This document shows, piece by piece, positions 2,463 to 27,526 of a stretch of DNA of 38,047 bases. Numbering within the stretch: the stretch's first letter is position 1; each line of letters opens with the position of its first letter. The position numbers and the translations under genes are program-made. Source of the DNA: a virus; the IMG/VR virus record IMGVR_UViG_3300010316_000022, positions 1 through 38,047 of that record; one strand, written 5' to 3'. The notes beneath the pieces are model-generated. The model searched no databases. It saw nothing but the letters and a program-made list of their open reading frames with translations, and was not told where the DNA came from.

Positions 2463-4529
2463 ATGGCTGAAGACCTAATCACGAATATGGATCAAGTAGA
2501 AATGTCTGCCCTTGAGGATAGCTCAGGGGAAGGACAGTCTGATCCTCAAGCAGGGACTATTGCTTCGTATGTCATGGAGCGTTACTCCAAAGCTGCTACT
2601 GCTCGTGAGACAGAGGAGGCACGGTGGCTACGGGCTTACCGTAACTACCGAGGTATCTATGGTCCTGAAGTTGCTTTTACGGATACAGAGAAATCTAAAA
2701 TCTTTGTCAAAGTAACTAAGACCAAGGTGAACGCAGCTTATGGTCAGATCACTGATGTGCTTCTTGGTAGTGCTAAGTTCCCGCTGACCATCAACCCTAC
2801 TCGTCTTCCTGATGGTGTTGAGGATACAGTGCACTTCGAGACTAATGACCAGCTTACAAAAGCTATGGAAGAGTTCCCGGAGCTTCAGCCAGGGGAAACT
2901 ACTGATGACTTTGTTCGTCGTCTCGGCGGTCTACAGAAAGAACTAGAACCAGTCAAAGCTAAACTTCAAGCTGGTCCTGGTGTTGGTCCTACTCAGGTTA
3001 CTTTTCATCCTGCTGAGATTGCGGCTAAGAAGATGGAAAAGAAAATCCATGACCAACTAGAAGAGTCTCGCGCTAAGAAGCACCTCAGAGCATCAGCCTT
3101 TGAGTGTGCTCTCTTTGGTACAGGGGTTATGAAAGGTCCTTTTACAGCTAACAAAGAGTATCCTCAGTGGGATGATGATGGGACCTATAACCCCTTGATC
3201 AAGACTGTACCTAAAGTATCTCATGTATCTATCTGGAACTTTTACCCAGACCCTGATGCTAGTAATATGGAGGAAGCAGAGTGGGTTGTAGAGCGTCACA
3301 AGATGTCTCGTCCTCAGCTTCGTGCCCTAAAGAAACGTCCTTACTTCCGCGATACTGAGGTAGACCTTGCCCTTGAGTGGGGTGAAGACTACATCAAGGA
3401 AGACTGGGAGCAGGCTATGGAGGATGATGCCCAAGGTACTCGCACTGAGCGTTATGAGGTGTTGGAGTTCTGGGGTAATGTAGACCGTGAACTACTTGAA
3501 GACCACGATGTAGAGATTCCAGACGAGGTAGTAGACAGTGAGGACATCAGTGTAAACATCTGGGTCTGTCATGGTCGTATTCTTCGTTTGGTTGTCAATC
3601 CCTTCACACCTTCTGTTATTCCTTACTATGCTGTTCCTTACGAGATGAACCCTTATAGTATGTTTGGTGTTGGTCTTGCTGAGAACATGGATGACACTCA
3701 GACACTGATGAATGGTTTCATGCGTATGGCTGTAGACAACGCAGCACTCTCAGGTAACCTTGTGTTTGAAGTAGATGAGAACAACCTTACCCCAGGACAA
3801 GACCTTACGATTTTCCCTGGTAAAGTATTCACACGCCAAGGTGGTGCTCCTGGTCAGGCTATCTTCGGCACTAAGTTTCCAAACGTATCTAACGAGAACA
3901 TGCAAATGTTTGACAAAGCACGTCAGCTATCTGATGAGTCTACAGGGTTCCCCTCGTTTGCTCACGGACAAACTGGTGTGTCTGGTGTTGGTCGTACAGC
4001 CTCAGGTATCTCTATGTTGATGTCTGCTGCTTCTGGTTCTATTCGTACCGTTGTTCAAAACTTTGATGACTACCTTCTTGGTCCCCTAGGTAAGTCTCTC
4101 TTTGCTTTCAATATGCAGTTTGACTTTGACCCAGAGATTAAAGGTGACCTTGAGGTTAAGGCTGCTGGTACTGAATCTCTGATGGCTAATGAAGTACGTA
4201 GTCAACGGTTGATGCAGTTGCTTGGTCTTGTACAGAACCCTGTGCTTGCACCATTCGCTAAACTTGATTACATCATTCGTGAGATTGCTAAGAGCCTTGA
4301 CCTTGATCCTGACAAGGTAACTAACTCTATGCAAAAAGCTGCTATCCAAGCTGAGATTCTAAAGACATTCCAGATGAACAACCCAGAGGCAGTGCCTCAA
4401 CAGGTTCCTGCTGGTGCTCAGGTGGGTGATACTCAAGGTTCCGGTGGAGGTAACATTGGTACAGGTACTGCTCCAGTACCAGGAGAACAGGGGTTTAGTG
4501 CCAACACCGGGGAAGGACCGCCAGTATGA
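2463..4529 (+). CDS. Portal protein (head-tail connector)
   Basis: This 688-residue protein is the likely dodecameric portal that forms the DNA gate at one capsid vertex and docks terminase and tail. Evidence is its place directly after the large terminase, its size, and portal-like stretches such as VSIWNFYPDPDA near residues 258-269 and the NPYSMFGVGLAENM segment near 400. Residues around 150-210 are lysine and glutamate rich. The last 50 residues are Gly/Gln/Pro rich and probably disordered. The size is nearer to P22-type than to T7-type portals. The stop overlaps the next start as ATGA. Function is inferred from order and pattern, with good confidence. Confidence 0.85.
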   Translation: MAEDLITNMDQVEMSALEDSSGEGQSDPQAGTIASYVMERYSKAATARETEEARWLRAYRNYRGIYGPEVAFTDTEKSKIFVKVTKTKVNAAYGQITDVLLGSAKFPLTINPTRLPDGVEDTVHFETNDQLTKAMEEFPELQPGETTDDFVRRLGGLQKELEPVKAKLQAGPGVGPTQVTFHPAEIAAKKMEKKIHDQLEESRAKKHLRASAFECALFGTGVMKGPFTANKEYPQWDDDGTYNPLIKTVPKVSHVSIWNFYPDPDASNMEEAEWVVERHKMSRPQLRALKKRPYFRDTEVDLALEWGEDYIKEDWEQAMEDDAQGTRTERYEVLEFWGNVDRELLEDHDVEIPDEVVDSEDISVNIWVCHGRILRLVVNPFTPSVIPYYAVPYEMNPYSMFGVGLAENMDDTQTLMNGFMRMAVDNAALSGNLVFEVDENNLTPGQDLTIFPGKVFTRQGGAPGQAIFGTKFPNVSNENMQMFDKARQLSDESTGFPSFAHGQTGVSGVGRTASGISMLMSAASGSIRTVVQNFDDYLLGPLGKSLFAFNMQFDFDPEIKGDLEVKAAGTESLMANEVRSQRLMQLLGLVQNPVLAPFAKLDYIIREIAKSLDLDPDKVTNSMQKAAIQAEILKTFQMNNPEAVPQQVPAGAQVGDTQGSGGGNIGTGTAPVPGEQGFSANTGEGPPV

Positions 4530-4729
4530 ATTTAAGACCATTTGTGAATGACAAACATCTCTATGATGATTTTCTTGAGGAGCTTGATGGGCGTATCACT
4601 GTTCTACAAAAAACTCTTGAACAGTCTACGTCTATTGAAGACGTGTATCGAACACAAGGAGCTATTGATTCTCTTCGCAAGCTGAAGACACTCAGAGATA
4701 AAGTTAATTACGGGACTCAACATGGCTGA
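4526..4729 (+). CDS. Small coiled protein downstream of portal
   Basis: This 67-residue, highly charged protein is predicted from its composition to be mostly helical, with a likely coiled-coil stretch at about residues 18-62. It is translationally coupled at both ends: its ATG overlaps the portal stop (ATGA), and its stop overlaps the next ORF by 8 bases. Position and size would suit a minor virion or assembly factor, but nothing in the sequence identifies it. Confidence 0.6.
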   Translation: MNLRPFVNDKHLYDDFLEELDGRITVLQKTLEQSTSIEDVYRTQGAIDSLRKLKTLRDKVNYGTQHG

Positions 4730-7700
4730 AGAAATTACACCACTCTTTGAAAGACCTAGGGAAGACTTCCTAAACTATATCCGTGAGGGTAGGAGTATAG
4801 GAACTATGGACCAGGAGCAAGAAGACTTTTTGAAACGAGAGTATGCTCGGGTTAATAGTCTAACAGGAAGTATGGAAACAGAACCAGAGGAAGGCCGTAG
4901 GTCTGTCCTCGGTGGGTTTTTCTCTAAGCCTGAGGGAGCTCTTGGCTGGGACGCTCTAAGGGGCCTTAGGTTCGAGCCTAAGCTAGGGGCTGCAGGGGTA
5001 GCCCAAGGTGTGGAGCAAGCCGTCACAGCCCCTGCTAGAGCCGCTCAAGGTCTAATGCCTGAATCAGACATGGCTATTGAATCTTTTGGTACAGCCAGTC
5101 TAGTTGGTGGTTCTGGTGTAGCTCGTGCTGGTCGTGATGCTGGGCGTGTTGACGAAGAGATGGTTAACATCTTCGGTGGGCGTAGAGCTAGAGGTTTTGG
5201 TTATGACCAGTCTGGGAATCCTCTACCGCTTTCTGTTGGTAAGGACGCACTAGATCGTTTTGAAATTGATGACTCTGGGTCTGTAGCCATCCCAGGTAAC
5301 TTAAAGTCCTTTAATGGTAGTGGAGTTAAAGTAGAAAACCTCCCTGAGATTGCTGATGTATTTATTCATGACGAGTTATTTTACCAGTATCCTCAAATTA
5401 CTTCCATACGTATTGGGGTTGATGAGTCCCTAGCTGGTACAAACACCAGAGGTTATTTTCAACCAGGAGCTAATTTTATTGGGATTAACCCAAAGATTGC
5501 TTCTGACCCGCAAGCGCTTAGGAGTACTCTTACCCATGAGCTTCAACACTTTATTCAGGAAATAGAGGGTTTTTCTAGGGGTACTAGTCCTGATGCTGCT
5601 GAAGTAAGACCTATTTCAGCTCAACTCTATTGGGAGCATCAGAATAAAATTGATGAGTATCAAAAACAACTGGATGAACTTGTAAACCCGGAGTCTGTGA
5701 TAGGTATTCTAGGTGATGCGACCCAGGTTGGTTTGGATGTTTTGGAGTCTTTTGGCGTTGACCCTATAGCTGTCATTGAAAACCCAGGAAGTTTAAGACA
5801 AAATTACAATGTACCCTCCCGTATTAAAAGTTCTTATAGTTCTTTAATTTCATCTATCGAAAAAGCGCAAGGACAAATGTCACCTAGTTTCGAGGGTAGA
5901 CCATCTTCTTCAGATTTGTTGAGAGAAACACAAGGTGAGTTAGACAGCTTTATTAGAACTCTTGCTACTGAGACAGACCCATCGTTAGACCTGGGTAGTT
6001 TTCAGGAGATAGTGGATTCCTACAGAGCTGTTTATGATAAATACGGTGTTGGTCACCAGCTATATAATCTACCTCTTGACCAATTTAAATCCGCTAAGAG
6101 AGAATTAGAGACCGCTTTAGCTAACGCTCTAGGGACTCCTGAAAGACCTGAATCCTTTTTTGATTCTGCGTATGAGGCTTACCGCAGAAAAGGCGGTGAA
6201 GCGGAGGCTAGAAACGCACAGACACGTATTGACTTTGATGAGCAACAAAGATTTAGGGAAAGTCCTGAGTCTACTGAAGATGTACCTAGGATAGACCAGT
6301 GGGGTATTCCTGGGGGGTTCGCTAAGGGTGGGCTTGTAACCGATAGCAGTACAATGAGTGACTACTTCAAAGCTTCTTCTGGTATGATGTCTGAGATGGA
6401 CTTCGTGGGTAAACACAAGATGTCTACTGCAGAGTTCGAGCGTAAGTTCGAGGAGGAAAACAACATAGATATTTCAGGAGCAGAAGCTCTAACAGAAATC
6501 AAGGGAGACACCATGAAAAGTCAAATGAAACAGTTTAACCAGGGTGGTATGGCTGTTCGTACTGATCCTATTAGTGGTAACGAAGTACCAACAGGAAGCC
6601 TCCCAGAGGAAGTACGGGATGATGTCCCTGCTATGTTGTCTGAGGGTGAGTACGTTATACCTGCTGATGTAGTACGATACTTTGGTGTTAACTTCTTTGA
6701 AGGTCTGCGTGAGAAAGCTAAGGAAGGTCTTAGTGGTATGGCTGCTGATGGTCGTGTCGGTGGTCAACCTGTAGGACAGAACCAATCTCAAGAACAACCA
6801 CAGTTGAGTCAAGAAGATATGCAGGCTATCTCACAGATGGCTGAAGGAGGTATTGTTGACTCTGGTAATATTGAAGGTATCATTGACAGAGTTCTTAATA
6901 CGGTAAAGACTAACCCTGACCTACAGAATGTCTTTAAGAAGAAAGGTATTATGATGGCTGAGGGTGGTCTGGTTGATCCCCAGGGTTCATTTAATCCGGC
7001 TGATTGGTCAGTTGTAGGCTCTGGTGGAGTACCAAGTATTCCCCAAGGTAACGGAGGCTATGAGTACAAGGAGTATGTAGGTCCTAATGGACAATCCACT
7101 ATGGTTTTGTTTGTAAACGGTATGCCAACCCAGAGTGTTCCTCAGGGTTTCGTATTAGCGGGAACTCAACAACCAACACAAAGTTCACCTCGTGGTGATG
7201 GCGGTGACTCAAGAACTAGACTTTCATCTAGTCCTCGTGTAGATGGTCAAGGGTCTGGTGACTCTTTGTTGTCTAGTCTAGGTAACCCCCTTAGTAAACT
7301 AGACTTCCAGAACCCTGAGGATGTTATGTCCTGGGCTGAAGATAGACTTAAAGCTGGTGCAGGGAACAAAGGTTTGGTAAGGGCTGGTATGGCGGTCTCC
7401 CCTATAGTCGGTTTGCTTGGCGCTGGTTCTCTTAAAGCTATGGATGCCCGGCGTATTGCTGAGGTTAATGCTGCTGCTATGGCTGCTGATGATGAAGGGA
7501 ATACAACCCTTGGTGACAAACTCCGTAAAGCTGCAGAGGAAGCTAAAGGTAACTTTGGTTTGTCAGGGATTGTTCGAGAAGAATGGATGGATGGCGACAA
7601 GATTTATGATAACTTCAGGGAACGCTCTGGTAGTCAAACCCAACAGGCACTTACCCCTACTACAACAACTCGCTCGTCTTCAAACGATAGGGATGACCTA

Positions 7701-7919
7701 ACGACACGAAGCACTTCAGGTGGTGTTGAATACCAATCTGATGCTGACAGTGAAGGAGCTTATAGTCGGTCTGTAGCTACAGGCTCTACTGCTCCAACTA
7801 CTTCCGCAAGACCAACAGCAAGACCAACCGCACCCCAACCTGAAGCCGAGACTATTGAGCAAAAGATTAGTCGTGGTGGTGGTTTTAAATCCGGTGGACT
7901 AGTTACACGCCGTAAGTAA
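4722..7919 (+). CDS. Large virion-associated protein with embedded HExxH domain
   Basis: This 1065-residue protein lies between portal and scaffold and is probably packaged in the virion. Residues about 190-530 hold an inserted module whose core is LTHELQHFIQEIEGFSRG. The HExxH zinc motif is H272, E273 and H276, and the wording closely resembles zincin-like large polyvalent protein associated domains (LPD23-like). The second half has repeated GGLV-type motifs near residues 536, 607, 706, 745 and 1060, and a conserved block near 620-660 (VPAMLSEGEYVIPADVV) seen in other marine phage structural proteins. The C-terminus is Thr/Pro/Ala-rich and low complexity. I infer an injected or assembly-associated peptidase; enzymatic activity is not shown. 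The AT-richer inserted module suggests separate acquisition. Confidence 0.7.
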   Translation: MAEEITPLFERPREDFLNYIREGRSIGTMDQEQEDFLKREYARVNSLTGSMETEPEEGRRSVLGGFFSKPEGALGWDALRGLRFEPKLGAAGVAQGVEQAVTAPARAAQGLMPESDMAIESFGTASLVGGSGVARAGRDAGRVDEEMVNIFGGRRARGFGYDQSGNPLPLSVGKDALDRFEIDDSGSVAIPGNLKSFNGSGVKVENLPEIADVFIHDELFYQYPQITSIRIGVDESLAGTNTRGYFQPGANFIGINPKIASDPQALRSTLTHELQHFIQEIEGFSRGTSPDAAEVRPISAQLYWEHQNKIDEYQKQLDELVNPESVIGILGDATQVGLDVLESFGVDPIAVIENPGSLRQNYNVPSRIKSSYSSLISSIEKAQGQMSPSFEGRPSSSDLLRETQGELDSFIRTLATETDPSLDLGSFQEIVDSYRAVYDKYGVGHQLYNLPLDQFKSAKRELETALANALGTPERPESFFDSAYEAYRRKGGEAEARNAQTRIDFDEQQRFRESPESTEDVPRIDQWGIPGGFAKGGLVTDSSTMSDYFKASSGMMSEMDFVGKHKMSTAEFERKFEEENNIDISGAEALTEIKGDTMKSQMKQFNQGGMAVRTDPISGNEVPTGSLPEEVRDDVPAMLSEGEYVIPADVVRYFGVNFFEGLREKAKEGLSGMAADGRVGGQPVGQNQSQEQPQLSQEDMQAISQMAEGGIVDSGNIEGIIDRVLNTVKTNPDLQNVFKKKGIMMAEGGLVDPQGSFNPADWSVVGSGGVPSIPQGNGGYEYKEYVGPNGQSTMVLFVNGMPTQSVPQGFVLAGTQQPTQSSPRGDGGDSRTRLSSSPRVDGQGSGDSLLSSLGNPLSKLDFQNPEDVMSWAEDRLKAGAGNKGLVRAGMAVSPIVGLLGAGSLKAMDARRIAEVNAAAMAADDEGNTTLGDKLRKAAEEAKGNFGLSGIVREEWMDGDKIYDNFRERSGSQTQQALTPTTTTRSSSNDRDDLTTRSTSGGVEYQSDADSEGAYSRSVATGSTAPTTSARPTARPTAPQPEAETIEQKISRGGGFKSGGLVTRRK

Positions 7920-7972: not shown

Positions 7973-8836
7973 ATGACTACTGAAATTATCGAACAACCTA
8001 AGTCTGTAATGATTAACCCTAACTACACCAAGCGTAGAAACCGTGATCGTATTGAGCAAGATGAAAAAGAACTAGAAGAACTCATGGGTAAGGAACCAGA
8101 GGAGCAAGAGGAAGATGAGGCTCAAACTCCCGAAGAAGACAGTTCTGAGGAGACACCCAGTTCTAAAGAAGAACAAACCTTTAAGAAACGCTACGGTGAC
8201 CTTCGAAGGTTTGTAGCTCAAAAGGAAAAGGAATGGGAAGAAAAGCTTGAGCAGGCTAAGGAAGCTAAAGGTGGTTTCGCTCCACCTAAGTCTAATGAAG
8301 ACCTAGAAGCTTGGGCTAAGAAGTATCCTGATGTAGCTGGTATCGTTGAGTCTATTGCTGCTCGTAAAGCCCAGGAGATGTTCGAAAAGACAAGCAACCG
8401 GTTTAAAGAGTTGGATGAACTCACCTACGAGACTAAACGTAGTAAAGCAGAGACATCTATCCGTGAGGTACACCCAGACTTTGATACTCTGAAGAACTCT
8501 GATGGTTTCCACGACTGGGCTGAGGAGCAACCTAAGTGGATTACTGACGCTCTGTATGACAACCAAGATGATGCTCGGGCTGTTATCCGTGTTATTGATC
8601 TTTACAAAGTAGACAAAGGGATGACTCCAGTTGCTAAAAAAGCTAAAGCTAAAGATGCTGCTGCAGATGTATCAGCTAAACAATCTTCACCTAAACTTGA
8701 TCCAGATGGCAGTTCTACTCGTATCAAAGAGTCCGATGTAGTTAAGATGAGCGACAAAGAGTTTGAGAAGAACTACGATAAGATCATGGAGGCACAGGCA
8801 AAAGGTACTTTTGTCTACGATATTACCAAAAGGTAG
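7973..8836 (+). CDS. Capsid scaffolding protein
   Basis: This 287-residue protein is very rich in Glu, Lys and Asp. It has an acidic N-terminal third (residues about 20-65, nearly all E, D, P, S) and long predicted helices after it. That pattern and its place immediately before the major capsid gene match phage scaffolds, which guide procapsid assembly and then leave. The start at 7973 has a strong AAGGAG eight bases upstream. A lysine/alanine-rich linker near residues 220-235 precedes a short basic C-terminus, the part that usually contacts coat protein. There is no catalytic motif, so a scaffold-protease is not supported. Confidence 0.75.
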   Translation: MTTEIIEQPKSVMINPNYTKRRNRDRIEQDEKELEELMGKEPEEQEEDEAQTPEEDSSEETPSSKEEQTFKKRYGDLRRFVAQKEKEWEEKLEQAKEAKGGFAPPKSNEDLEAWAKKYPDVAGIVESIAARKAQEMFEKTSNRFKELDELTYETKRSKAETSIREVHPDFDTLKNSDGFHDWAEEQPKWITDALYDNQDDARAVIRVIDLYKVDKGMTPVAKKAKAKDAAADVSAKQSSPKLDPDGSSTRIKESDVVKMSDKEFEKNYDKIMEAQAKGTFVYDITKR

Positions 8837-9075: not shown

Positions 9076-10149
9076 ATGGCTTTTCCAAGTGTAGCAGGAC
9101 ATGGTAACCTACCCAATGGTAACTTCAGCTCTGTAATCTATTCTAAAAAAGTACAGCTTGCATTCCGCAAAGCTACAGTTGTTGGTGACATTACTAACAG
9201 CGATTACTTCGGTGAAATCTCCGCTCAAGGTGATACTGTTCGTATTATCAAAGAGCCTGAAATCTCTGTAAGTGACTACAAGCGTGGCACTCAGATCACT
9301 GCTCAAGACCTGGACGACGAGGACTTCTCTCTGGTCATCGACAAAGCGAACTACTTTGCTTTCAAGACTGACGACATTGAGACTGCTCACTCGCACGTTA
9401 ACTTTATGGACCTGGCTACTAACCGTGCGGCTTATGTCTTGGCTGATAACCACGACCAAGAAGTTCTGGCATACCTCTCGGGTTATAAACAGTCAGTTAA
9501 GCACTCTGTTGGTGACACTGTAAACACGACTGTTAACGGCACCAAGGCAGTATCCACTGCTGGTTCTGACGAACTGCTTACAAGCATGAAGTTGAACAAA
9601 GGTAAGTTTGGTAACATCACGACTGTTTCTGCTGGTGATCACTCGATCCCTGTAGCTGCTCGTCTCCCTGGTGCAACCGCTCTGCCTACTGCTTATGTCT
9701 CCCCGGTTATGTTGATTAACCGTATGGGTCGTTTGCTGGATCAACAGAACGTTGACAAAGCTGGTCGTTGGATTGTCATTGATCCTATCATGATGGAAAT
9801 CTTGATGGATGAAGACTCTCGGTTCCTTAACGCAGACTTCGGTGATTCTGGTGCTCTGCGTAACGGTCTGGTTCTGAACAACTGGAATGGTTTCCGTGTC
9901 TATTCTTCTAACAACCTCCCCGCTGTTGGTGGTGGTGCTGGTACTACTGGTACAGCCAACCAGAATACAGACTTCGGTGTGATTGTTGCTGGTCATGACT
10001 CGGCTATCGCTACTGCTGAACAGATCAACAAGACTGAAACTTACCGTGACCAGGATTCGTTCGCTGACGTTGTGCGTGGTATGCACCTCTACGGTCGTAA
10101 GATTCTTCGCCCTGAAGCAATCGTTACTGCTAAATATAACCTCGCATAA
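9076..10149 (+). CDS. Major capsid protein
   Basis: This 357-residue protein is the shell subunit, expected to have the HK97 fold. Support comes from its position after the scaffold, its size, the typical N-terminal pattern of a coat protein with charged E-loop region (residues about 45-95), and the late beta/helix segment containing RWIVIDPIMMEILM near 228-241. The start at 9076 follows a strong GAGGAGG. Codon choice differs from its neighbours: many codons end in C (AAC, GAC, CTG), as expected from selection for very high expression. It has its own promoter and a 5-prime hairpin about 200 bases upstream. Confidence 0.88.
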   Translation: MAFPSVAGHGNLPNGNFSSVIYSKKVQLAFRKATVVGDITNSDYFGEISAQGDTVRIIKEPEISVSDYKRGTQITAQDLDDEDFSLVIDKANYFAFKTDDIETAHSHVNFMDLATNRAAYVLADNHDQEVLAYLSGYKQSVKHSVGDTVNTTVNGTKAVSTAGSDELLTSMKLNKGKFGNITTVSAGDHSIPVAARLPGATALPTAYVSPVMLINRMGRLLDQQNVDKAGRWIVIDPIMMEILMDEDSRFLNADFGDSGALRNGLVLNNWNGFRVYSSNNLPAVGGGAGTTGTANQNTDFGVIVAGHDSAIATAEQINKTETYRDQDSFADVVRGMHLYGRKILRPEAIVTAKYNLA

Positions 10150-17152: not shown

Positions 17153-17947
17153 ATGTTAAAAGACACTATTCAACAATTCAGAATGATGAGAAGCCAATCT
17201 CGTGATCGTCTTGGTACTCAACAGAAGACTAAACAACGCCTTAGTCTAGCTGAGAGACGTATCGCTGAGACTTCTTATGAGATGAAAGCTGCAGCTAGAG
17301 GTGTTGCTCAGGCTGCGGAAGAAGCACCTTATGATCCTGCCGAGAGTATCAACTCCTGGTATGATCAGATTGATGAAATGCGTAGGGAACGTGCTACCCG
17401 TGCTGACCAAGAGCGTTCTACCTCCGGTACTCTAGGACAAGAACAAAGACCTGAGCGTAGGTATGAACAAGAGTTCAGGGGTGAAGTTTCTGTTCCAGAA
17501 GACCTTAAGGAAGACCCTGAGTTTACCTCTGCTGTATCTGAACTAGCTTCTAAGTACGGGATCAACGAGTCAGAAGTATACGCAGTAATTCAAGGTGAGT
17601 CTGCCTTTAATCCTCAGGCTCGTAACCCTAGCGGAGCCACAGGTTTGTTCCAATTCATGCCTACTACTGCTGAAGAACTTGGTGTCTCTACAGAAGATAT
17701 TATGTCTATGTCACCTACTGAGCAGGTTGAACTCTACGATAAGTATCTTCAACGGTGGAACTACTCAGGGGGTAACCGTCTAGGGATTATGCAGGCTGCC
17801 CCTGCGTTCGCATCTAAAGCCCCTGAAGAAGTTATCTATGCCAAGGGTACCGCAGCTTGGGACCAGAACCCAGGGTGGCGAGAACTAGGTGATGGACCAA
17901 TTACTGTTAGAAGTATCAATAGCTATTACGCTAAGAGAGGATCATAA
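17153..17947 (+). CDS. Virion-associated lytic transglycosylase
   Basis: This 264-residue protein has a charged helical N-terminal half and a C-terminal SLT-type lytic transglycosylase domain (residues about 118-250). The catalytic glutamate is E149 in VIQGESAFNP, followed by the family motifs GATGLFQFMP and, further on, a GNRLGIMQAAPAF segment. The enzyme cleaves peptidoglycan so that the ejected tube can cross the cell wall. In T7 this domain is at the start of gp16; here it is a separate protein. It starts two bases after the previous stop and overlaps the next gene as TAATG. It could also assist lysis, since no dedicated endolysin is visible. Confidence 0.87.
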   Translation: MLKDTIQQFRMMRSQSRDRLGTQQKTKQRLSLAERRIAETSYEMKAAARGVAQAAEEAPYDPAESINSWYDQIDEMRRERATRADQERSTSGTLGQEQRPERRYEQEFRGEVSVPEDLKEDPEFTSAVSELASKYGINESEVYAVIQGESAFNPQARNPSGATGLFQFMPTTAEELGVSTEDIMSMSPTEQVELYDKYLQRWNYSGGNRLGIMQAAPAFASKAPEEVIYAKGTAAWDQNPGWRELGDGPITVRSINSYYAKRGS

Positions 17948-23544: not shown

Positions 23545-23808
23545 CTACCCCTGTGTCATGAAGTCACCCCAACGGTTGGCTTCTTTTTTTATGTCTTCCA
23601 TTTGGTGATCTTTAATCTCACCTGAAGTTCTAGCCAGTAGACCACCAAGAGCTACCCCAATGTAGTACTCTCTATTGGTTAGAGCCTTGGGTCTCCCCGG
23701 AGAGAGCTTCTTGGGCTTGGACTCTTTGGAGGTTTCTAAAATACGACTGGGTGTAACCTGATTCATAGCTACGTCTATCCTCGCTGCCTTGCTCGTAGAG
23801 GGAGCCAT
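23545..23808 (-). CDS. Hypothetical protein overlapping an RMF-like gene
   Basis: This frame of 87 residues has an unstructured, Lys/Ser/Pro-rich first half and a better-formed second half (LTNREYYIGVALGGLLAR then a helix rich in E and K). The start at 23808 follows AGGGGG at a suitable distance. Its first 137 bases lie inside the gene before it, in another frame, and no later ATG, GTG or TTG would remove the overlap without losing the conserved-looking core. Either the overlap is real or the upstream gene is shorter than drawn. Function unknown. Confidence 0.45.
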   Translation of the reverse strand: MAPSTSKAARIDVAMNQVTPSRILETSKESKPKKLSPGRPKALTNREYYIGVALGGLLARTSGEIKDHQMEDIKKEANRWGDFMTQG

Positions 23809-25600: not shown

Positions 25601-27526
25601 TTAGGTTAGGTCTACAATCTCACATGAATCACCTGAGCAGGCCATCGTCTGCATACCAGAAGTATTATCATCTTCTTCGTAGTTAGACAACAGAGACCAG
25701 TCAATACTTTCAGGCATTACACTAAGCAAAGACTCGTACCCTTCTTTGGTTGTCTCTTGGTATGGTGCTTGTTGGTATGAACCACCATCGTGAGGCAAGA
25801 AGCTAACACCAGACATTTCATCAAAGTGTTTGAATACAAAGGCACCTACTTCAAACCACTCATTGTCCTTCACAGAGACAGTCACAGAGGGCTTGTGTTC
25901 ACACCAGTGGCGTTGGTATACCAACCATGTCTCAAGCTGCTCTACGGCTGTCATATCGTCTCTGGTGATACAACCTGTAGGGGCTTTAACAGGGAAGCTG
26001 AATACCGTAGTCTGGTTTGGTTTCATAACACAAGGTTCGTTAGGTACTCCTTGGTCGATCATAAGCTGTGTCAATGGGTCTTTGCTATCGCCTCTAACAG
26101 TTCTAATGTAGTAATCAGAATGACGAGTGTGAATACCAGAAGCACTATCAACCAATTGACTAACGGTGCCACTGGGCTTGACGCAAGTGATGGATGTAGA
26201 AGCAGGAATCCCAAGACGGGAAGACCAATCAGCATTAGTGTCAACAGCAATAGTACGAAGGTGCTCAAGTGTTTTCTCCAATCCTTGATTCTTTGTTGTC
26301 ATCAATGGGTTGTCCATGATACCTGTAAGTGATACCCCAAGCAACCGCTCTTCTTCTGTGTTCTTCTGCCAAATCTTTCTTAGGTATGGGAAGTACGTGT
26401 AAGTTGACTGGATAGTTCCCAGGATTGTAGCAAGTCGTACCTTACGCTCAAGGTCTTCGATAGTATCTGTAGCACGTACTACTACTTCTGACAGGTTACA
26501 GAACTGATAGGGTCGGAGGATGATTTCACTACAAGGGTTAGTCCCAAATTCATGGTTAGGGTCACGACGACCATACTTCTCCGCCTGTTTCTTTGAGGCT
26601 ACACGATTAAATACTCCGCGTTCACCAGACTTACTCTCTACCAAGGCTGTCCACTCACGAAGGAATGTCTCTACGTCAGGCTTCTCTGTGTAGCATACCG
26701 AGTTGTTAGCCAAACCACGTTGACCTTGTGTTTCCCACCACTGCCCACTCTTAGCATGACGCATACGGTCATCGCTTAGGTTAGACAGAGAGATCATAGC
26801 ACTACGGCGTACACCACCAACTACAACTACTTCACCAATCTTACACATAATGTCGTGACACTCAATAGAGGATAGCTTACGACCTGCTCCACCCTTAAAC
26901 TTTCCAATGGTGAACTGGAAGAGGTCAACCAAAGGAGCTGGGCCAGATGCTCGACCGCCGAAGGTCTTAAGTTTAGCTCCAGCAGGTCTAATCCTAGAGA
27001 TGTCCCATTTAGGAATCTCACCCGAATAGAGTAGTGATAGGAGCTGTCGATAGGCCTTTGCCCAACCTTCTTTACTATCTTTAACAACGATTGTTGTATC
27101 AGATTCAAATAGTCGCTCTGGGATTTCAGGCAAATTCTGGATATACTGTCGTTCAACACTGAAACCTACCCCTGTCCCACATAGAAGAATAAACATAGCC
27201 TCATCAAAAGACTTAGGGTCATCCACAGGCAAGTAGCTGCAGTTGTACATACAAGTATTGTCACGCTCTGCTGCTGTGCCTGCTGTCATCATAGATCGCA
27301 TAGAGGGCATTACCTCAAGGCTTAGGATAGCCTCTTCAAAATCCGCAGCGCACAAACCTTGAGTGTCGTCCCAAGACATTCCTTCTAGCTTAGGGCAGAC
27401 AATCTCTGTGATATATCTCGCTGTAGTCTCGCCCCAAGTCTCTCGTCGTTTCGCCTCAGGCAACCACCGAGCATACCTCGATAGCGCGATGAAGGACTGA
27501 TAGTCAGTTGGTAGTTGGTTACTCAT
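25601..27526 (-). CDS. nrdJ: Adenosylcobalamin-dependent ribonucleotide reductase (class II)
   Basis: This 641-residue enzyme reduces ribonucleotides to deoxyribonucleotides using a radical generated by adenosylcobalamin. NPCSE (residues 330-334) gives the radical cysteine C332 and glutamate E334. C343 in QFCNLSE lies 11 residues on, as in the monomeric Lactobacillus leichmannii enzyme, and its redox partner is C92 or C96. The C-terminal pair C630 and C635 (ACSGDSCE) is the thiol relay. CVKPSGTVSQL and related segments are also typical. It is shorter than the roughly 740-residue L. leichmannii enzyme. There is no small subunit or activase, as expected for class II. The host must supply or import cobalamin. 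Confidence 0.94.
   Translation of the reverse strand: MSNQLPTDYQSFIALSRYARWLPEAKRRETWGETTARYITEIVCPKLEGMSWDDTQGLCAADFEEAILSLEVMPSMRSMMTAGTAAERDNTCMYNCSYLPVDDPKSFDEAMFILLCGTGVGFSVERQYIQNLPEIPERLFESDTTIVVKDSKEGWAKAYRQLLSLLYSGEIPKWDISRIRPAGAKLKTFGGRASGPAPLVDLFQFTIGKFKGGAGRKLSSIECHDIMCKIGEVVVVGGVRRSAMISLSNLSDDRMRHAKSGQWWETQGQRGLANNSVCYTEKPDVETFLREWTALVESKSGERGVFNRVASKKQAEKYGRRDPNHEFGTNPCSEIILRPYQFCNLSEVVVRATDTIEDLERKVRLATILGTIQSTYTYFPYLRKIWQKNTEEERLLGVSLTGIMDNPLMTTKNQGLEKTLEHLRTIAVDTNADWSSRLGIPASTSITCVKPSGTVSQLVDSASGIHTRHSDYYIRTVRGDSKDPLTQLMIDQGVPNEPCVMKPNQTTVFSFPVKAPTGCITRDDMTAVEQLETWLVYQRHWCEHKPSVTVSVKDNEWFEVGAFVFKHFDEMSGVSFLPHDGGSYQQAPYQETTKEGYESLLSVMPESIDWSLLSNYEEDDNTSGMQTMACSGDSCEIVDLT

Follow-up and report, generated by a model that had tools for sequence, protein, structure and literature searches.

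A predicted zincin domain as an apparently exchangeable payload on a conserved anchor in the head-gene module of an HMO-2011-like phage

Analysis of a 38,047-base viral record related to HMO-2011-like podoviruses (the window, i.e., the whole stretch of DNA that was analyzed) revealed a head-module gene whose product appears, from sequence comparisons, to carry an exchangeable N-terminal cassette on a conserved anchor, a point missed in the first-pass annotation of this DNA. The gene, which we call the slot gene (4722–7919, plus strand), is an open reading frame with relatives in IMG/VR, and its 1065-aa product has a payload of approximately aa 1–590 fused to the anchor and a variable C-terminal region. 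The payload in the window contains a predicted zincin metallopeptidase domain, and the new element here is this setting, that is, an exchangeable zincin payload on an anchor in the head module. Our best reading, with somewhat better than even confidence, is that the zincin forms the N-terminal part of a head-module protein as an exchangeable payload and is virion cargo that acts during or after DNA delivery.

The slot gene and its conserved anchor

In the window the terminase gene is followed by the portal gene and then the slot gene, after which come the probable scaffold gene and the coat gene. The portal gene (2463–4529, plus strand) is of the SU10 portal type (PF23899, 2.4e-30) and the major coat protein gene (9076–10149, plus strand) matches phrog_267 (6.6e-63). 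The probable scaffold gene (7973–8836, plus strand) was assigned by its position and its acidic, charged sequence; its match, phrog_13678 (2.8e-48), is without function annotation. A lytic transglycosylase gene (SLT, 3.8e-16) at 17153–17947, in the tail or ejection module, is separate from the slot protein, and a ribonucleotide reductase, of the B12-dependent type as judged by its insertion domain, is encoded on the minus strand at 25601–27526.

From approximately aa 590 onward the slot protein matches HMO-2011 gp49 and roseophage CRP-603 gp62, which begin there; these two proteins share the slot and the anchor with the window, but both are without an N-terminal payload. IMG/VR was scanned with this part of the protein and the best 80 loci were taken as anchor relatives. 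The 70-aa anchor, DPISGNEVPTGSLPEEVRDDVPAMLSEGEYVIPADVVRYFG...GG.P (aa 615–683; 6564–6770, plus strand), lies within the last ~450 residues of the slot protein and was present in all of these best 80 relatives, with 33 invariant columns within its span in 53 sequences. Wherever the sequence of these loci reached far enough, the portal was upstream of the anchor (59/59) and the coat downstream (62/62). The first-pass annotation had placed the zincin module between structural segments. This holds for its C-terminal side, where a conserved family is tied to the structural module, but not for its N-terminal side, as the first 136 aa (4722–5129, plus strand) are a variable part with no known domain and no Pfam match. 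Beyond the anchor, the variable C-terminal region (6771–7919, plus strand) ends in GFKSGGLVTRRK, the common form in the family being NKGGLMxKKKK.

A Pfam search with the anchor returned no family, its AlphaFold2 model had no recognized fold (pLDDT 69, pTM 0.29), and that model matched only unnamed viral proteins, at 46–49% identity. Gene position suggests a location for the anchor next to the portal. Six anchor relatives (L175–L180) occurred in MAG-binned contigs whose assigned taxa differ widely (Euryarchaeota, Bacteroidetes, Gammaproteobacteria, Alphaproteobacteria, and Halobacteriovorax); these are likely binned free phage contigs.

Payload exchange and the occupants of the slot

Comparison of close relatives showed where payloads begin and end. 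The DNA of loci L062 and L153 is 93.5% identical as far as 7 nt after the start codon of the slot gene; identity resumes, at 89.6%, 49 aa upstream of the anchor motif. The payloads enclosed by these break points are unrelated, a probable NlpC/CHAP domain in L062 and an LPD23-zincin in L153. The left break was at nearly the same point in L030/L062 and in L069/L153. In L027, L041, L054, and L050 the break came ~350–370 nt downstream of the gene start and was preceded by an N-terminal module of ~120 aa that these loci share. This module, which has a hydrophobic stretch (LAGALGGAALVGLVPGLGDAAAKAI), is common to different payloads (L027, L039, L041, L050, L054, and L082) and is possibly a translocation or targeting part. 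The window and its nearest portal relative, L035, have the same kind of payload difference, a zincin versus a probable ADP-ribosyltransferase, and their DNA similarity resumes at 6354, just downstream of the peptide FAKGG (aa 533–537; 6318–6332, plus strand). Over 21 pairs of loci with 80–90% portal DNA identity, BLASTN coverage was 0.98 for the portal, 0.33 for the payload, 1.0 for the anchor, 0.21 for the C-terminal part of the slot protein, and 1.0 for both scaffold and coat, so that both ends of the slot protein vary while its anchor is fixed.

Of the 66 slot proteins whose 5' end was complete, 23 have 31–41 aa before the anchor motif, i.e., no payload, and 43 have 102–1489 aa, although these proportions are only indicative because the set includes three proteins (L095, L103, and L153) that were taken from the zincin search. 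LPD23-zincin payloads are present in the window, L021, L064, L069, L095, L096, L103, and L153, and in L030 by motif. Of the complete slot proteins, only L095 can be aligned with most of the window payload (29.7% identity over 552 aa). A second and different type of HExxH motif (HELMH, HEVMH, HEVIH) fills the slot in L048, L071, and L024. Pfam suggested payloads of ART-PolyVal (L035, L074), ParB (L082), methyltransferase (L074), and NlpC/CHAP (L025, L062, L079) types, as well as the L5 gp82 family (L039, L077); the latter is above the cut-off, but many of the Pfam payload assignments fall short of the curated cut-offs and serve as leads. These other payloads resemble effectors or entry enzymes. 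In Sinorhizobium phage phiM6 and Rhizobium phage RHph_I3_11 the gene at this position encodes a cell-wall hydrolase domain (below cut-off); a clear anchor was not seen in either sequence, and it is their position that links these two genes to the slot protein.

A candidate internal Shine-Dalgarno sequence in the window, AAGGGAG (6501–6507), and an ATG at 6513 (M598; together 6501–6515, plus strand) lie near the point at which unfused relatives start, which is suggestive only. An M-x-x-(x)-Q-[MTE] peptide near this candidate start is kept in 51 of 58 fused proteins. A strong Shine-Dalgarno match preceded a near-anchor Met in 90% of fused genes versus 10.6% of payload Mets, the former figure being the best of several Mets per gene. 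Synonymous recoding gave equal Shine-Dalgarno strength for most genes (3/52 at p <= 0.05), and an excess was found only in the PRSNS group (p ~0.015), the window having none (p 0.20). The internal start is a lead only, since the amino-acid sequence explains most of the matches. A bolder reading, which we consider rather unlikely, is a dedicated payload slot in which the anchor protein beside the portal would accept exchangeable enzymes at its N-terminus and an internal start kept at the join would yield both bare and payload-bearing anchor, so that only some of the copies in a virion carry cargo.

The zincin domain and its relatives

The first-pass annotation had reported HELQH at residues 272–276, and this was confirmed (5535–5549, plus strand, of the open reading frame at 4722–7919). 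H272 and H276 are the predicted zinc ligands and E273 the predicted general base, and the H, E, Q, and H are invariant (n = 56). The module span it gave, 5280–6290, corresponds to aa 187–523 and is a near-exact match to the module, from the end of an LPD23 remnant to just past a glutamate-bearing helix. In the AlphaFold2 model the zincin core (5364–5567, plus strand) comprises strands at aa 230–234, 244–247, and 252–255 together with the HExxH helix at aa 263–282 (block-mean pLDDT ~93–98). The two ligand helices are separated by a helical insertion (~aa 295–470; 5604–6131, plus strand) that is variable in the family and less certain than the core. Structure prediction had been proposed as a check for the third metal ligand, and the second ligand helix (aa 479–501; 6156–6224, plus strand; pLDDT ~95–98), with Y487 and G492-E493-A-E495-A-R497, carries two invariant glutamates, one of which, E493 or E495, is predicted to be the third zinc ligand.

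The third-ligand motif, Y487-GGE493-A-E495-AR, was not named in the first-pass annotation and is invariant in 56 relatives. In the alignment of these sequences H272, E273, Q275, H276, Q279, Y487, E493, E495, and A496 are invariant; its members were chosen for both motifs, so it shows their joint occurrence and not their frequency. A scan without selection for both motifs found GExEAR, or a close form, 28–256 aa after HExxH in 60 of 81 HExQH open reading frames. Homologues of the zincin domain were found among phage records and in IMG/VR. A chance HExxH is ruled out by this homology (invariant residues, n = 56) and by shuffling of the slot protein, which gave any HExxH at P = 0.0022.

In a Foldseek comparison with viral models, 11 proteins matched the domain at E <= 0.001, the majority being LPD-containing; the top match was at 2.6e-08, and LPD-containing polyvalent proteins were matched down to E 8e-08. 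Comparison with PDB structures, which is dominated by the long helical insert, gave no significant match, the best zincins being jannalysin (prob 0.84, E 0.66) and selecase (prob 0.63, E 1.1). A profile search with the domain touched IrrE at E 0.12. The window thus shares the HExxH type with ImmA/IrrE (M78) and the minigluzincins, but these similarities are not significant, and membership of M78 was rejected as a PF06114 search of the slot protein gave no match. Overall, the predicted zincin fold is well supported by modeling and conservation, and not by a solved relative.

The zincin had been likened to LPD23 (PF18838), and this name does not fit the protease. LPD23 is a 58-aa domain that lies upstream of the zincin in phage AF and others; in phage AF it is above the cut-off at aa 669–724 and HExxH is at 807, so that LPD23 is 83–138 aa upstream and does not cover the motif. 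In addition, an HMM search of the slot protein with PF18838 (Pfam cut-off 27) gave no match, nor did the isolated stretch produce one at E 10. What the window has is a shortened LPD23-like remnant, IFGGRRA...DRFEIDDS (~aa 146–185; 5157–5276, plus strand), at the expected upstream place, in which the N-terminal FGG and C-terminal RFEIDDS are kept but the central helix is missing. E181 and D184 of the remnant are nearly invariant in the A3 alignment, and fuller LPD23 forms occur in L069 and L153, with an intermediate form in L096. The first-pass annotation therefore seems to have recognized the right neighborhood and put the LPD23 name on the wrong piece. The only Pfam family found on the zincin was PF20573 (DUF6782, putative metallopeptidase), which covers the strand-HExxH part, at 25.5 bits (E 9.6e-06), below its cut-off of 27; the slot relative L103 scores 31.2 bits, above it. 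On this basis the window protease appears nearest to PF20573 and among the metallopeptidases known from phage polyvalent proteins.

The relationship to the zincins of phage polyvalent proteins that the first-pass annotation had proposed was supported, with the gene lying inside the head-gene module. Like those described by Iyer et al. (2017, PMC5512222), the window domain has an HExxH helix, a Glu on a second helix, and a variable insert, and occurs in a large phage protein beside an LPD domain. It differs in its insert, which is unusually long (H272 and the GEAEAR motif are 220 aa apart), in its HMO-2011-type anchor adjoining the portal, and in being one of several exchangeable payloads. The window chain joins an LPD23 remnant, the zincin, and the anchor, and the slot as a whole carries several domains of polyvalent type, most of them below cut-off. 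The module had also been described as AT-rich, which is modestly the case: its GC of 0.412 (window mean 0.455) ranks among the lowest 2.4% of segments of equal size, and among the lowest 0.7% of those within the structural module. As GC3 of the domain (0.27–0.35) is close to that of the C-terminal part (0.30), this may reflect amino-acid content, and base composition alone is a weak argument for foreign DNA.

Proposed role of the zincin payload

We propose that the anchor most likely locates the slot protein beside the portal in the procapsid or virion, and that the payload would travel with it, act during or after DNA delivery, and cut either a host protein or its own chain to release a piece. 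The presence of the protein in virions is suggested by gene position and by relatives in giant proteins labeled structural or found among internal virion genes (phage 8P "structural protein" and phage AF gp16); a search of the literature on the HMO-2011 phage group found no virion proteomics. Packaging, injection, zinc-dependent activity, and the target of the payload are likewise what we infer for it. Three roles have been described for zincins of this class: processing ahead of packaging (P1 DdrB), processing inside the head or the host, and attack on host proteins (PMC5512222).

Cargo fits better than an assembly enzyme, based on the swapping in the slot, its other occupants, and the dispensability of the payload in the wider group, where 23 of 66 relatives are without one. 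A protease acting in head assembly on scaffold, coat, or portal, and not in the new host, would agree with the location of the slot gene between the portal and the scaffold and coat genes. However, the zincin domain is missing from most relatives whose portal, scaffold, and coat belong to the same families, and its place is taken in some by unrelated enzymes. Head assembly therefore does not generally depend on a zincin, and we judge such a role very unlikely. It is also improbable that the domain is a structural or inert remnant, its fold kept only to aid packaging. The zincin-containing region of the N4 protein is needed for encapsidation (PMC5512222) and LPD23 is degenerate in the window protein, but every catalytic residue is conserved across 56 divergent sequences, which were partly retrieved using patterns that include the HExxH and Glu motifs.

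Self-processing is less probable than our best reading, but we give it more weight than these two alternatives. The zincin would cut its own polypeptide, e.g., near FAKGG, before or after packaging, and free the payload from the anchor with no host substrate involved. For the zincin class, this activity is as well established as cleavage of a host or virion protein (PMC5512222): packaging of P1 DdrB is preceded by its processing to a 76-kDa form, for which its zincin is the predicted agent, whereas the zincin-bearing N4 virion RNA polymerase is packaged uncut (PMC5512222). FAKGG is a copy, at the payload border, of a motif, [FYM][AN]xGG, that is strongly over-represented (26 times) in 81 slot proteins, with 230 copies observed versus 8.8 expected. 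The motif clusters on either side of the anchor and towards the C-terminus, being at aa 533, 605, 706, and 745 in the window protein; elsewhere in the window it occurs only in one small minus-strand open reading frame at 23672. However, as it is also present after the anchor, at the C-terminus, and in slot proteins without a recognized protease, it is not confined to zincin carriers, and its reading as a specific zincin cut site was not supported. The choice between a host target and self-release is not strongly decided by these data, and we favor action of the payload at or after delivery.

HMO-2011-type phages have been described as dominant and widely distributed in the sea (PMC9038755), and a number of the core genes in this group are without known function. 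A fixed position that swaps enzyme cassettes among phages that are otherwise nearly identical would show where fast-changing host-interaction functions sit in these genomes, and such a payload slot would allow effectors to be discovered by position and not by similarity. The zincin cassette may be one such swappable cargo that is carried or delivered by the virus, and the anchor could be a natural module for loading proteins into virions.
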